A stretch of DNA of 64,000 nucleotides from Streptomyces sp. SJL17-4. Lineage in GTDB: Bacteria > Actinomycetota > Actinomycetes > Streptomycetales > Streptomycetaceae. Below are positions 40,261 to 45,243 of the stretch, piece by piece. The notes under the pieces are model-generated. The model saw only the letters and a list, made by a program, of their open reading frames with translations, did not search any database and was not told the DNA's origin. Made by a program: the position numbers and the translations under genes. Numbering within the stretch: position 1 is the first letter of the stretch; every line of letters starts with the position of its first letter. The stretch is taken from contig NZ_CP104578.1 in the NCBI RefSeq assembly GCF_036826855.1, positions 3,100,001 to 3,164,000 of the forward strand, in the 5' to 3' direction.

Positions 40261-41958
40261 ATGCAGCCATGCGGGCCGAACGATCCGTCGCAGGTGGGGC
40301 CGTTCCGTACGTTGGCGGTGCTCGGGCAGGGCGGGATGGGCCGGGTCCTGCTCGGGACGGCGGCGAACGGACAGCTCGTCGCGATCAAGCAGGTGCACGC
40401 CGATCTGGCCGACGACGCCGGGTTCCGGTCGCGGTTCCGGCGGGAGGTCGACGCCTCGCGCCGGGTGTCCGGCGCCTACACGGCACCGGTGGTCGAGGCC
40501 GATCCGGAGGCGGTGACGCCGTGGCTGGCGTCGCTGTTCCTGCCGGGGCCGTCGCTGAGCGAGGCCTTGGCGGGGGCGAGAGCGTCGGCAGCGGGAGCGG
40601 GAGCCCCGGGGACGGCGGTAGCGGCATCGGGGTCCCCTGTGGCGTCCGCACCGGTTGGGCTGCCAGAGGAGGCCGTACGTCGGCTCGCCGCAGGTCTCGC
40701 GCAGGCCCTCGTCGACATCCACCGGGCCGGGCTCGTCCACCGCGACCTCAAACCGTCGAACGTGCTGCTCACCGACGACGGCGTCCGCGTCATCGACTTC
40801 GGCATCGCGCGGGCCGCCGACCAGATGACCAAGCTGACCCACACGGGCGCTCTCATCGGCTCCCCCGCGTTCATGGCACCCGAGCAGGTCCGGGGAGAGG
40901 CGCCGACGCCCGCCACGGACGTGTTCGCGCTCGGCGCCACGCTGGTGGTGGCCTGCACGGGGAACACGCCGTTCAGCGGCACCTCGGTCCCCGCCCTCAT
41001 GCACTCCATCGCCCACACCGAACCCGTCCTCGACGGCGTCCCGCCGGGCCTGCGGGGGATCGTCGAGGCCTGCCTGGCCAAGGACCCGGGCCTGCGGCCC
41101 TCGCCGCAGGACGTGCTCGGCATGATCGGCCCGGTGGCCCCGCTGCGGCAGCCGTGGCCGGAGGGCGTGCAGCGCCGGATCGCGGAGCAGGCGGCGGAGA
41201 TCGACCGCCTCATGGGGTCGGCACCGACGCACGCGGGGCCGGCCGTGCATGCGCCCGTACCCGCGCCCGCACGGCGTTCGCGACGGCAGCGCAGGTGGAT
41301 CGCCGCCGCCGTGACCGCCGGGGCGCTCACCGTCACCGGGGCGGTGTTCGCGGCGACGGGCTGGGCGGCGGACGTGTACTACTGGGTCGCGCCGGAGCCC
41401 GTACCGACGCCGGGGAACGTACCGCTGAACCAGGTGGCCGACGCGTACACGGGCACGATCCCGACCTGCGCGGAGGCCGGTGCGGCGATCAAGCGGCCTC
41501 CCGGCTTCACCCCGTTCCCGGTCAAGGACGGTGGGCCGCCGATCACCTCGGAGGACGGACAGCGGAACCAGTGCACCTGGAGCACCCGCTCCGGCGACGA
41601 GATCACGTTCGCTCTGAGCATCTACCGCTCGAAGAACGGCGGCCCCACCGGAGCCGAGCAGTCGAAGTCCCACTACGAGGGCATGTACATGCGGGGCAAG
41701 ACCCTGCGCGTCTCCACGCTCGACTACGTGGAGGAGGCCCTCTGGTACAAGCCGGACGGCGGTTACTGCGTGCTGTACGGCCGGGACGTGAACGCCGAGC
41801 TGTTCGTCATGGTGAAGGGCACGAACTACCCCGTGGGGACTTGTGAGGCCGTGACCGAGGACCTCGGGAAGCAGACCATGGCGGTACTGAGGGCGAAGGC
41901 GAAGACCAAGACGACGACGGCGACGGCGACGGCGACGACGGCCGAGGGGGCCCAGTGA
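40261..41958 (+). CDS. Membrane Ser/Thr protein kinase, copy 1
   Basis: A 565-residue PknB-type receptor kinase. The glycine loop is LGQGGMGRV (21-29), with Lys43 (AIKQ), Glu62, HRDLKPSN (160-167, Asp162) and DFG 179-181. An Ala/Gly-rich insertion at about 103-133 sits within the C-lobe. One membrane helix (about 345-368) leads to an external domain with four Cys (in IPTCAEAG, NQCTW, YCVLYG, GTCEAV) that resembles DUF3558-like sensors. ATG 40261 follows GGGGGAGGGTGA. The next gene is a paralogue with a TGATG overlap. Confidence 0.88.
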   Translation: MQPCGPNDPSQVGPFRTLAVLGQGGMGRVLLGTAANGQLVAIKQVHADLADDAGFRSRFRREVDASRRVSGAYTAPVVEADPEAVTPWLASLFLPGPSLSEALAGARASAAGAGAPGTAVAASGSPVASAPVGLPEEAVRRLAAGLAQALVDIHRAGLVHRDLKPSNVLLTDDGVRVIDFGIARAADQMTKLTHTGALIGSPAFMAPEQVRGEAPTPATDVFALGATLVVACTGNTPFSGTSVPALMHSIAHTEPVLDGVPPGLRGIVEACLAKDPGLRPSPQDVLGMIGPVAPLRQPWPEGVQRRIAEQAAEIDRLMGSAPTHAGPAVHAPVPAPARRSRRQRRWIAAAVTAGALTVTGAVFAATGWAADVYYWVAPEPVPTPGNVPLNQVADAYTGTIPTCAEAGAAIKRPPGFTPFPVKDGGPPITSEDGQRNQCTWSTRSGDEITFALSIYRSKNGGPTGAEQSKSHYEGMYMRGKTLRVSTLDYVEEALWYKPDGGYCVLYGRDVNAELFVMVKGTNYPVGTCEAVTEDLGKQTMAVLRAKAKTKTTTATATATTAEGAQ

Positions 41959-43580
41959 TGCGCCCCCTCGGACCCACCGACCCGCGTACGGCCGGACCGT
42001 ACGGGCTCCTCGCCGAACTCGGGCGCGGCGGCATGGGCCGCGTGTTCCTCGGCGCCGCACCGGACGGGCGGCTCGCCGCCGTGAAGCAGGTGCACGCGCG
42101 GCTCGCCGCCGACGAGGACTTCCGCGCCCGCTTCCGGCGCGAGGTCGCGGCCTCGCGGAGGGTGTCCGGCGCGTGCACGGCGGCCGTGATGGACGCCGAC
42201 ACCGAGGCGGCCACGCCCTGGCTCGCCTCGGTCTTCGTCGCCGGGCCGTCGCTCGGTGCGGCGGTCGAGCGGTCCGGGACGCTGCCCGTGGAGACGGTAC
42301 GGCGGCTCGCCGTGCAGCTGGCGACGGCGCTGGACGAGATCCACCGGGCGGGGCTGATCCACCGCGATCTGAAGCCCGAGAACGTGCTGCTGGCGGAGGA
42401 CGGAGCCCGGGTCATCGACTTCGGGATCGCGCGGGCGGCGGAGGCGGGAGCCGGGGCCGGGGCCGGGCACGTGACTGAGCTGACGGGGACGGGGCTGGTG
42501 GTCGGCTCGCCCGCGTTCATGTCGCCCGAGCAGGCCGAGGGGAAGGAACTCACCCCGGCGAGCGACGTGTTCTCGCTCGGCTCGGTCCTGACGCTCGCGT
42601 CGACCGGGGCGAGCCCGTTCGCCGGACCCTCGACCTTCCAGGCCCTGTACAACGTCGTCCACACGGAGCCGGACCTCACCGCCGTACCGGCCGGACTGCG
42701 CCCGCTCGTGACGTGGTGCCTGGCGAAGGACCCGGCGGCCCGCCCGACGCCCGCGCAGCTCCTGGCGTCGCTGGGACCGGCGGCGCCGGTGGCACGGCAG
42801 TGGCCACCGGCGGTGCACGCGGCGATCGCGGAACAGCGGCGGGACATCGACCGACTGCTGGTCGGCGGGGGTGGGGCCGGCGGCAGCGATGACCACAAGC
42901 GGACGGTGGTCCTGCCGCCGGGCGGCGGCGCGGCCGCGCCGACGGCGGTGGCCACACGGCTGGACGCCGCCCCGGTACGCCCGCGCCGGGCGGGCCGGAG
43001 GGGCCGGACCGGCCGGTTCGTTGCGGCGGGGGTGGCCCTGGCCGTCCTCGGCGCCGGGGCGTGGTGGTACTTCGGGGACGGTGGGCCGGGGGAAGGCCCG
43101 CCGGACCTGTACGTGACGATGCCGGTCTGCTCGGAGGTGGCCGCGAAACTGCCGGTGCCGGGGGAACGACGCCCGGACCAGGACCAGTACCTGGACTACT
43201 CGGACAACGCGGAGACCAGCTGCTCGTGGAACGACAAGGACGAGCCGCAGTCGGACGGCTGGAACTACCACGCGCATGCGATGGTCCGCTGGGAGCTGCG
43301 CCGTAGCGCGGGCGCGAGTGAGAACGGCACGCGACGCCAGGAGGCGGAGTTCGCGGACGACGCGGAGGGCGAACGCCCGGAGAAGGGACTCGACTTCGCG
43401 GACGAGGCCTTCTGGAGCGCTCCGAGCAGCGCGGAGACGACGTGCTCGCTGTACGTCCGCAGGGGAAACCTGGTGGTGTACGTGTCCCTGGGCGGGAAGC
43501 GGCACCAGGCGGAGACGTGCGAGGGGGAGGCCAAGAAGATCTCGGCGGCGGCGGTGTCGGCGATGCCGAACGCGTCCTGA
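41958..43580 (+). CDS. Membrane Ser/Thr protein kinase, copy 2
   Basis: A 540-residue paralogue of the preceding kinase. It has LGRGGMGRV (21-29), Lys43, Glu62, HRDLKPEN (135-142, Asp137) and DFG 154-156. A membrane helix (RFVAAGVALAVLGAGAWWYF) separates it from an external domain with four Cys in the same order (MPVCSEV, TSCSWND, TTCSLYV, ETCEGEA). It lacks the Ala/Gly insertion of copy 1. ATG 41958 overlaps the upstream stop, so translation is coupled. The substrates and signal are unknown. Confidence 0.88.
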   Translation: MRPLGPTDPRTAGPYGLLAELGRGGMGRVFLGAAPDGRLAAVKQVHARLAADEDFRARFRREVAASRRVSGACTAAVMDADTEAATPWLASVFVAGPSLGAAVERSGTLPVETVRRLAVQLATALDEIHRAGLIHRDLKPENVLLAEDGARVIDFGIARAAEAGAGAGAGHVTELTGTGLVVGSPAFMSPEQAEGKELTPASDVFSLGSVLTLASTGASPFAGPSTFQALYNVVHTEPDLTAVPAGLRPLVTWCLAKDPAARPTPAQLLASLGPAAPVARQWPPAVHAAIAEQRRDIDRLLVGGGGAGGSDDHKRTVVLPPGGGAAAPTAVATRLDAAPVRPRRAGRRGRTGRFVAAGVALAVLGAGAWWYFGDGGPGEGPPDLYVTMPVCSEVAAKLPVPGERRPDQDQYLDYSDNAETSCSWNDKDEPQSDGWNYHAHAMVRWELRRSAGASENGTRRQEAEFADDAEGERPEKGLDFADEAFWSAPSSAETTCSLYVRRGNLVVYVSLGGKRHQAETCEGEAKKISAAAVSAMPNAS

Positions 43581-43599
43581 GAGGGCGAGGTTTAAGGGG

Positions 43600-43673
43600 G
43601 CGGGGCGACCGGATTCGAACCGGCGTCCTCCGAGATGCCATCGCGGCGCATTACCTCTGTGCTACGACCCCGC
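43600..43673 (-). tRNA. tRNA-like gene, anticodon GGC (Ala-like), odd acceptor stem
   Basis: The minus strand has a good A box (TAGCACAGAGG) and perfect B box (GGTTCGAATCC). The anticodon arm CCGCG-ATGGCAT-CTCGG gives anticodon GGC with U33 and A37, but one mismatch. The acceptor GCGGGGT/GCCCCGC forms only with a bulged C before the T stem, position 8 is not U, and the D stem is weak. No CCA is encoded. It is either a degenerate tRNA-Ala or a specialised tRNA-like RNA. Confidence 0.6.
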
Positions 43674-43689: not shown

Positions 43690-43753
43690 ACGGGGCAGAG
43701 GTGCGGGGACGAGGGGTTTCTGGGGTGGGCCGACTGTGGGGGTGCGGGTGCGG

Positions 43754-43887
43754 CCGCCCTCTTTCCGAGTGTGGCGTCCTCCACCACCGCGTCAAGGGCG
43801 CTCCTTCGTCGCGTCGGCTTCGCCGATTCCGCTTCGCTCCACCCTTGACCCGGCGGCGGAGGCCGCCTTTTCACACTCGGAGGGCGG
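43754..43887 (+). mobile_element. TIR-bounded 134-bp unit (MITE-like), left copy
   Basis: Starts CCGCCCTCTTTCCGAGTGT and ends ACACTCGGAGGGCGG, which are inverted versions of each other apart from a 3-base insertion. The unit recurs inverted at 44494-44625. It has no ORF. Mobility is inferred, and no clear target duplication is visible. Confidence 0.5.
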
Positions 43888-44144
43888 CCGAGGGCCGGGG
43901 CCACGCGGGGGCCTCGGGGGTGGTTGCGCGTCGTGGGCGGCGTGGGGCTTGTGGGTGGGGTGCGAGGCCGGGCATCGGTTGCGGTGGGTTTGGCTGTGCC
44001 GGTGAGCGGGTGGGGCTTGGTTCGTTGCTCGGGCCGGTGGGTGAAGTCCGGTGGGTTGGGGGTGCGCGGTTGTTGAATGGGGCGGCCCGGCTTGGCTTGG
44101 CGGGTTGCGGCCGGCGGTTGGTTGGGATTCAGGCCCCGCTGGTC
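43754..44144 (+). repeat. Left arm of an 870-bp imperfect palindrome
   Basis: Conserved blocks in this arm recur inverted and in the same order in 44291-44625. Among them are a 26-bp identical block at 44060-44085 (partner 44349-44374), a 17-bp block at 44128-44144 (partner 44291-44307) and 16-bp blocks at 43754-43769 and 43789-43804. No convincing ORF is present. Confidence 0.85.
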
Positions 44145-44290
44145 TGTGTGGGTGGGTGGTTCGGCGGTGGCGGTGAGAGTTTCTTGCACTTTCATCGCCC
44201 GATAAGGGCGATTCACCCCCAATGAGGCTTAATCTGGGGCCTGCTACTTCGAGAAGTGCAGAGTTACTCACGCCCCCACCCACCGGGAAT
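44145..44290. other. Central spacer of the palindrome
   Basis: Contains the local hairpin ATCGCCC-GATAA-GGGCGAT (44194-44212). Diverged matches such as GTGAGAGTTTCTTGCACTT continue the dyad almost to the centre. No gene recognised. Confidence 0.6.
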
Positions 44291-44625
44291 GACCAGCGGG
44301 GCCTGAAGCCCCGCTCCGATCGGCATTCCGACGCTAAGCGTCGCCCCGCCGCCCCATTCAACAACCGCGCACCCGAACCGGCCGACGGAAGCCCATCCCC
44401 CTCGGCCGCGAACCAAGCCCCCACCCACCGGCCGGCACACGCCCTCCCGCCCCGGCCGCTGCCCGGGCCGTACGCGTGACCCCGTCCCCTGGACCGCCCT
44501 CCGAGAGTGTTTTCGCTCCTGGAGGTGGTGGGTCAAGGGTGGCCGAAGGCCATCGCGCAGCGACGCGACCGCAGGGAGCGCCCTTGACGCACCACCGGAA
44601 GGAGCGACTCTCGGAAAGAGGGCGG
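44291..44625 (-). repeat. Right arm of the 870-bp imperfect palindrome
   Basis: Inverted homologue of 43754-44144. Matching blocks keep their order, and their coordinate sums drift only from 88379 to 88435, showing two full-length diverged copies rather than chance dyads. Confidence 0.85.
44494..44625 (-). mobile_element. TIR-bounded 132-bp unit (MITE-like), right copy
   Basis: Inverted copy of 43754-43887. On the minus strand it begins CCGCCCTCTTTCCGAGAGT and ends ACACTCTCGGAGGGCGG, sharing the internal GCGTCAAGGGCGCTCC and CCACCCTTGACCC. No ORF. Confidence 0.5.
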
Positions 44626-44712
44626 TCCCACCCGACACTCGCGTACCCGGCCCACCCCTAGGACCCCAAGCCCCCCGCCACCCGCCGGGCGTCCCCGGCG
44701 GGTGGCGGTACG

Positions 44713-45243
44713 TCAGACCTGCCAGTACTTACGGATGTACCCCGTCAGCGTGGCGCTGGCGTGGTCGTGGTCCAGCAGGTTGACCTTGGCGCTCATCGTG
44801 CCGCCACCGGTCGAGTCCTCGAAGTTCCCTTCGCCCCGCAGGATCTTGAACGTCCCGGACGGGTAGACCATCGTGTCCGACGTCAGCGGCGCGGAGAGCT
44901 CGTAGCTGATGTAGAGCTTGTCACCGTCGCTCTCCGTCATCGTCGCCGTCCCCTTGATGTCGTACTTGCCCGGGACGGTCGCGGTGCACGCCACCTCGTC
45001 CTGCGCCCAGGCAGCACCGCTGACCGGCGCCCCTCCGGCGGTCCCCGTCCCGACCACCTTGTAGCCGTTACAGCCCACGGTGTCCGGGTGCGTGGTCGCA
45101 ACCACGCCGAAGTTCACGCTGATGGTGACCGTGGGCGGGTTCTCGATAGCGAACGACGTGCCCGCCATCCCGCCGAAAATCATTGCCGATGCGGCTCCCA
45201 CGCCCGATATGCGCGCAGCCCAACGACGAGCAGTTCCTGCCAT
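44713..45243 (-). CDS. Secreted hypothetical protein
   Basis: A 176-residue exported protein. The signal peptide (ARRWAARISGVGAASAMIFG) is likely cleaved after Ala32 (TSFA-IEN). The mature part is beta-rich (TVTISVNFGVV, YKVVGTGTAGG, LYISYELSAPL), with two Cys (VGCNGY, EVACTA) that could form a disulfide. I recognise no family. ATG 45243 follows GGGGGATG. Upstream, a T-rich patch (45335-45365) is unusual for this genome and may hold its promoter. Confidence 0.68.
   Translation of the reverse strand: MAGTARRWAARISGVGAASAMIFGGMAGTSFAIENPPTVTISVNFGVVATTHPDTVGCNGYKVVGTGTAGGAPVSGAAWAQDEVACTATVPGKYDIKGTATMTESDGDKLYISYELSAPLTSDTMVYPSGTFKILRGEGNFEDSTGGGTMSAKVNLLDHDHASATLTGYIRKYWQV

Follow-up and report, generated by a model that had tools for sequence, protein, structure and literature searches.

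The palindromic locus and its surroundings

The window analyzed here is a stretch of 64,000 nucleotides at positions 3,100,001-3,164,000 of an 8.54-Mb Streptomyces genome contained in one contig. Within it, a large palindromic element lies between a tRNA-Ala(GGC) gene (43597-43673, minus strand) on one side and a 176-aa reading frame (44713-45243, minus strand), which had no Pfam match at E<=0.001, on the other. Upstream of the tRNA gene there are two tandem kinase-like frames (40261-41958 and 41955-43580) with a 4-base overlap; part of the second was searched against Pfam, and its match to the kinase domain stayed below the cut-off. When the kinase was used as bait for contigs carrying the same site, only distant relatives were found, the best of which, in L153, shared 56% identity across almost the full query. 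Just outside the element, next to the 3' end of the 176-aa frame, two perfect 15-bp inverted arms enclose a 4-nt loop (44675-44708), resembling a terminator. An earlier note on this sequence regarded the region after the kinases as gene-free. In the element itself, a base-composition filter detected no coding-like frame; the note had missed the tRNA gene between the kinase and the element.

The same note described an 870-bp dyad (43754-44625) composed of seven inverted blocks. Each block is indeed identical between the arms at the coordinates given, and the coordinate sums run from 88379 to 88435 as reported. The dyad is thus real but slightly longer than proposed, since the core unit common to all eight full-length copies of this genome (see below) occupies ~43745-44634. 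Based on the alignment of the eight copies and their flanks, the whole element in this copy extends to the outermost shared GGGGTGGGCC / GGCCCACCCC ends (43722-44658), of which the outer left end, at ~43722, is common to 5 of the 8 copies. The left arm (43745-44159, plus strand) was delimited by inverted repeat matches and located modules, and the right arm (44276-44634, minus strand), a diverged inverted copy of the left one, by repeat search, module location and self-BLAST. A central spacer of 116 nt (44160-44275) remains between the innermost arm match.

Several analyses support this layout. We counted 55 inverted 10-mer matches lying no more than 60 bases off the dyad diagonal in 43722-44658, whereas 300 dinucleotide shuffles averaged 0.48 and never exceeded 8. 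Self-BLAST of the element gave inverted matches with E=6e-17 (65% over 521 columns) and 2.6e-15 (72% over 164 columns), and the inverted arms were also recovered by the repeat search. In addition, each arm end is itself a foldback, a feature overlooked previously.

Copies within the genome

The earlier note interpreted the similarity between the arms as a sign of a selected DNA or RNA structure, or of a repeat family, and proposed counting further copies and analyzing their covariation. Both interpretations were borne out: additional copies are present, mostly as inverted pairs, and covariation was detected (see below). Two of the three outcomes that the note had named as refuting it, a lack of further copies and a lack of covariation, therefore did not occur. 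In this genome we identified eight full-length copies, 86.5-99.8% identical to each other in pairwise comparison, and two partial ones. All eight are internal to the chromosome and intergenic, in several gene arrangements; one of them, L032, is located between two divergent gene starts. They enclose nothing, aligning end to end, and these several dispersed copies have no transposase of their own. The terminal motif GTCAAGGG-N(36-64)-CCCTTGAC occurs at 18 sites, including 16 in eight pairs and two singles, and a reversed control pattern at none. Neither single module has an exact partner; one (C1:5442011-5442067) and a full copy lie 2.3 kb apart in direct orientation, and the other (C1:3748466-3748520) sits in a shorter palindromic copy.

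Judging from their sequences, the copies look like a patchwork of alleles. L032 and L034 are 99.8% identical inside and different outside, L033 shares ~28 bp of the native flank of L032, and the outer ends differ between copies. The variable outer ends and the L032 flank found in L033 are untidy for cut-and-paste transposition.

The same sites in related genomes

We examined the corresponding sites in relatives. At the L032 site, the flanks meet in three genomes (G322, G249 and G298), where only ~3-87 nt of diverged intergenic DNA separate the parts that could be aligned; this site holds other DNA, not a clean empty site, in G004 and G339, and a family element in G341. At the site of the window in G004, the tRNA flank is joined to sequence past the element and the 176-aa gene, both of which are missing; a relative of the 176-aa protein is present elsewhere in the G004 genome. 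Another unit, which carries a GntR gene in G161, lies between a gene ending CCGGCGTTCTGA and an apparent kinase gene start. Its flanks are contiguous in at least 117 of 295 genomes (counted by hand among the matches listed), and 13 loci were aligned. At this site, elements with matching arms were found in G279 and G348, a 50-bp module match in G083, and intervening DNA without a module match in G046 and G328. The region (C12:364-370 kb in G161) carries different insertions in these genomes and is a possible hot spot.

We infer that insertion, rather than deletion, explains the absent units; for L032, where three empty genomes were examined, deletion in the relatives is also conceivable. No target-site duplication was readable at the L032 and G161 GntR sites because the flanks are too diverged.

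In G341, the elements found at the sites of L032 and L033 share 76-79% identity with each copy of our genome, and the flanks measured at these two sites are 86-94% identical. Since our copies are more similar to each other than to their same-site counterparts, gene conversion or replacement may have occurred, and the similarity of copies within a genome points to gene conversion as its cause.

Inverted pairing and enclosed genes

Pairing was counted in seven genomes that were listed in full, G134 being set aside. They contain 92 modules, 32 of which lack an exact-module partner, and 31 neighbors are less than 5 kb apart. The orientation of these close neighbors is L->R in 30 cases and L->L in one, the remaining two kinds not being found among them, and the spacing of the L->R pairs ranges from 735 to 3693 bp. 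According to self-BLAST, the arms are mostly 250-700 bp.

In relatives, the arms enclose diverse genes, such as those for AraC-GyrI, alpha/beta hydrolase, HAD (twice), NmrA, GGACT-GDSL, GntR-UTRA (twice), CYTH, APH-type phosphotransferase, GNAT, glycosyltransferase, MDMPI_C and SnoaL proteins. No Pfam family above the cut-off was assigned to the interior frame of L109 or to the weakly TPR-like one of L255. The only transposase seen inside a pair, a DDE_5 protein in L256, was rejected as the mobilizer because it has its own 17-bp inverted ends and looks like a nested insertion sequence. Among the pairs examined, no autonomous partner with the same ends was found.

Considering the dispersed copies, the strict inverted pairing, the enclosed genes and the empty sites together, a non-autonomous mobile element is the best account of these observations, and the element looks mobile rather than merely structural. 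The palindrome of the window is probably one copy of an actinomycete element of the MITE/mobile-cassette type, homogenized by gene conversion, whose ends are selected as folded DNA. The two arms would represent long inverted terminal repeats with a foldback at each end, the tip of which would be a module composed of three minihairpins with GNA triloop caps. The element encodes no transposase, and an enzyme that recognizes the folded arm end, most likely in single-stranded or extruded DNA, would move it in trans. The empty copies of our genome would then behave like MITEs and the gene-enclosing copies of relatives like mobile insertion cassettes, and after insertion gene conversion would keep the copies within one genome alike. 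Points against this reading are that no target-site duplication was readable and no autonomous version was found, the untidy outer ends, the modules lacking a partner, the other DNA at the L032 site in G004 and G339, and the computed energies and hairpin register described below.

Terminal foldbacks and their modules

The left terminal foldback, CCGCCCTC...GAGGGCGG (43754-43887), recognized by an inverted match and a self-complementary module, carries the left module, GTCAAGGG...CCCTTGAC (43791-43849, minus strand), whose GNA loops are on the minus strand. For the right terminal foldback (44491-44628), a long stem with a cloverleaf tip was predicted as the DNA fold, and segment 44487-44634 reached -58.9 kcal/mol (z -8.9 on the plus and -8.3 on the minus strand). 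The plus strand of the right module (44532-44588) can form C(GAA)G, C(GCA)G and C(GCA)G triloops. Both modules were located by pattern match, and at the tip of each foldback the GTCAAGGG/CCCTTGAC stem surrounds three minihairpins. Folded alone, the right module gives a three-hairpin cloverleaf (z -4.3), with hairpins 2 and 3 in a register other than that of the GNA plan. The left module folds less well, scoring z -2.5 for its minus and z -2.3 for its plus strand, and its predicted minimum is not a cloverleaf.

We drew up a plan for the 57-nt module, in which an 8-bp stem closes three hairpins with zero linker bases. The two facing GA dinucleotides of hairpin 3 would fit tandem sheared G.A pairs. 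On this plan, which is our own and not the predicted minimum, 16 distinct gap-free modules of this one length class (other lengths, 53-76 nt, being set aside) pair in 352 of 352 cells, although most pairs never vary. Three pairs are doubly changed, in nine cells. None of 500 shuffles equalled the observed number of paired cells or the covariation score, and 14 of 500 equalled the count of doubly changed pairs. Hairpin 2, invariant in these 16 modules, has TCAC/GTGA, GTCC/GGAC or TCGGC/GCCGA as its stem in other families, which supports its GNA register. More generally, stems differ in other families while most loops remain GNA, and between species the terminal hairpin modules are better conserved than the full arms.

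The loops follow a rule. Among 39 distinct modules from the loci collected, there are 67 perfect hairpins with a triloop and a stem of >=4, and 64 of these have the form C(GNA)G, on one strand, with 28 GAA, 19 GCA, 9 GGA and 8 GTA loops. Throughout the rest of the window, taken on both strands as the only background, 23 of 1162 such hairpins are C(GNA)G, a total that includes some counts from the 50-N spacer substituted for the element. The GNA loops of this copy lie on the plus strand at the right end and on the minus strand at the left, so that each end carries them on its 3' strand, as do the L->R module pairs in the seven genomes.

The computed DNA energies show no preference for the GNA strand (-19.2 versus -20.2 for its complement). 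GNA loops are reported to make extraordinarily stable DNA minihairpins, in the words of a title (Yoshizawa 1997, cited in PMC6479982). Despite the computed energies, folded single-stranded DNA is the form most likely to be under selection, given the one-strand GNA rule, and the loop type points to such DNA more than to a transcript.

An explanation at the RNA level should be weighed at this point. Transcribed arms might form long hairpins that end transcription or stabilize or regulate neighboring transcripts, with the pairs serving as two-way terminators. Both strands of the right arm do fold far better than shuffles (the z values above, obtained with DNA parameters), the copies lie between genes, and compensatory changes fit RNA equally. 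However, the space between the two divergent gene starts flanking L032 is not where a terminator is expected, a transcript would carry one GNA and one complementary end as the loops are on opposite strands at the two ends, and neither the enclosed genes nor the absence of whole units is explained. Rfam 15 also gave no family at gathering score in the window except tRNA, on which ground identity with a known RNA family was rejected. We consider this explanation unlikely.

Distribution in actinomycetes

Within the genus, 87 of 150 genomes match the element at E<=0.001, many of them weakly or in the module only. Full-length relatives were found in G004 (three) and G341 (two), and a partial one in G015. 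Matches to a looser module pattern occurred in 51 of 150 and in 27 of 99 genomes; several of these matches are not module-like and probably arose by chance, and some genomes also matched the reversed control pattern. With a stricter pattern, modules were detected in 14 of 394 genomes of the class, representing 8 of 137 genera; eight of these genomes, from seven genera, are outside the genus of the window.

Nine out-of-genus modules and one from a mycobacterial plasmid, counted with a stem of >=3, have C(GNA)G in 27 of their 34 perfect triloop hairpins. Of the other seven, six overlap the plan in a different register, and the last is C(AAA)G. The departures in hairpin 1 are this C(AAA)G of the mycobacterial plasmid, a mismatch (f44) and the lack of a triloop (f19). 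At six loci from other families, up to 1.5 kb on either side was inspected and each held a single module.

Short matches were observed in plasmids from Streptomyces (two), Nocardia (two) and a mycobacterium (one). The two Nocardia plasmids are circular and carry the module at the same place, beside a protein phosphatase 2C gene (NZ_CP107850.1, 284714-284777, and NZ_CP108384.1, 164982-165051); in the former, a ParB-family gene is ~3.7 kb away. Records of N. farcinica and M. branderi likewise match the Nocardia module region. On the linear Streptomyces plasmid NZ_CP109028.1, a module (132141-132243) faces inward ~600 bp from the end, opposite to telomere polarity, and ~1.9 kb downstream of a P4-type primase gene. 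A phage collection gave no match at E<=1e-5, and a phage origin was rejected for this reason.

REP/BIME elements with RAYT transposases are dispersed intergenic hairpin repeats, sometimes in inverted pairs, and in these respects our element is similar. One could therefore suppose that REP-like modules were spread by a Y1 (RAYT/IS200-type) transposase recognizing the foot of a hairpin in single-stranded DNA. Besides the hairpin-based, dispersed and intergenic nature of the modules, this agrees with two Y1 transposase matches in our genome and with the presence of Y1_Tnp in 4 of 11 module-bearing versus 2 of 10 module-free genomes. On the other hand, Y1_Tnp was not detected in 7 of the 11 module-bearing genomes, including G161 with its 25 modules, and a resident Y1/RAYT transposase was rejected on this basis as an unlikely general mobilizer. 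The element is also much larger than REPs, which measure 20-40 bp (in part after PMC3733652), and differs from them in its inverted-arm organization and its capacity to enclose genes. Such an origin is very improbable.

Implications

Searches among a set of open-access papers brought up no description of this repeat. If the interpretation as a non-autonomous mobile element is right, an overlooked actinomycete family shifts ordinary genes, one or two at once, between intergenic sites; it would do so without an obvious transposase and would pass for gene-free gaps or spurious ORFs. With the GNA loops keeping to one strand, a step through folded single-stranded DNA can be tested directly, and gene conversion could be measured in a natural system, the similar copies of a single genome. 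The resemblance to telomere hairpins described below raises the question whether telomere proteins act inside chromosomes.

Comparison with known systems

Published work on Streptomyces telomeres describes 3' strands that often have GAA, GGA, GTA or GCA loops, sheared G:A pairs and cloverleaf folds, and the binding of Tap to telomere palindromes II and III (PMC8743542, PMC4513846, PMC7205883). Our element resembles these telomeres in its cloverleaf, its short stems, its mostly GNA triloops on the 3' strand of the end and its compensatory stem changes. It differs in being internal to the chromosome in inverted pairs, whereas telomeres are terminal; what the two share is fold, loop and polarity but not position, and therefore we do not class the element as a telomere. 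No such hairpin cluster was noticed on reading the ends of our own contig. Direct sequence comparison failed to establish a telomere identity, as the presumed archetypal telomere motif of 19 nt used for it was matched in none of 121 genomes.

A true telomere-type origin is nevertheless conceivable, in which a linear mini-replicon, protein-primed or hairpin-ended and using Tap/Tpg-like proteins, was the ancestor of the unit or is the form in which it still moves. Such an origin would be in line with the loops, cloverleafs and Tap binding just mentioned and with the element's GNA strand likewise being the 3' strand at each end. At each end of NZ_CP109028, the 3' strand has seven perfect triloop hairpins, of which five are C(GNA)G (C(GGA)G four times and C(GTA)G once), and a module is present near the end of this same plasmid. 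However, that module faces inward, modules also occur on circular Nocardia plasmids, and in our element the module is ~45-70 bp inside the boundary and not terminal. The linear plasmid NZ_CP108163 is less strict, with C(GNA)G in 6 of 10 hairpins at one end and 2 of 4 at the other (where the record ends in a GT run), and some Streptomyces telomeres have CTTG loops instead, according to PMC7205883. The motif comparison lends such an origin no support, and a further point against it is that no telomere-protein family was found among the interior frames scanned against Pfam. On balance we regard it as doubtful. Equally speculative, and improbable in our view, is the proposal that the units are a family of actinobacterial mobile gene cassettes with internal telomere-like cloverleaf ends, which telomere-type proteins would excise or copy in the form of linear DNA that is folded, hairpin-ended or protein-primed. 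If that were true, the end-maintenance machinery of linear replicons would also spread single genes.

Parvovirus-type terminal foldbacks, whose comparison with telomeres is drawn in PMC4513846, share the branched foldback at both inverted ends with our element, a resemblance of shape only.

Unlike the REP/BIME elements, which it matches in dispersal and occasional inverted pairing, the element also occurs in genomes without a detected Y1 transposase. The closest agreement is with MITEs and mobile insertion cassettes (MITE/MIC/MICE), in keeping with the reading as a non-autonomous mobile element that we prefer. The Aeromonas pAC3 cassette and MITE (PMC5444012) have inverted terminal repeats and no transposase and exist in empty and gene-carrying forms. 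Inverted end repeats, the lack of a transposase of its own, dispersed copies and empty sites (L032 and the G161 GntR unit) place our element beside such systems, which likewise have several copies and a mostly intergenic location. The differences are that no insertion sequence with matching ends was seen here among the pairs examined, that the arms, mostly 250-700 bp, are much longer than the ~20 bp there, and that each of them bears a foldback with three minihairpins.
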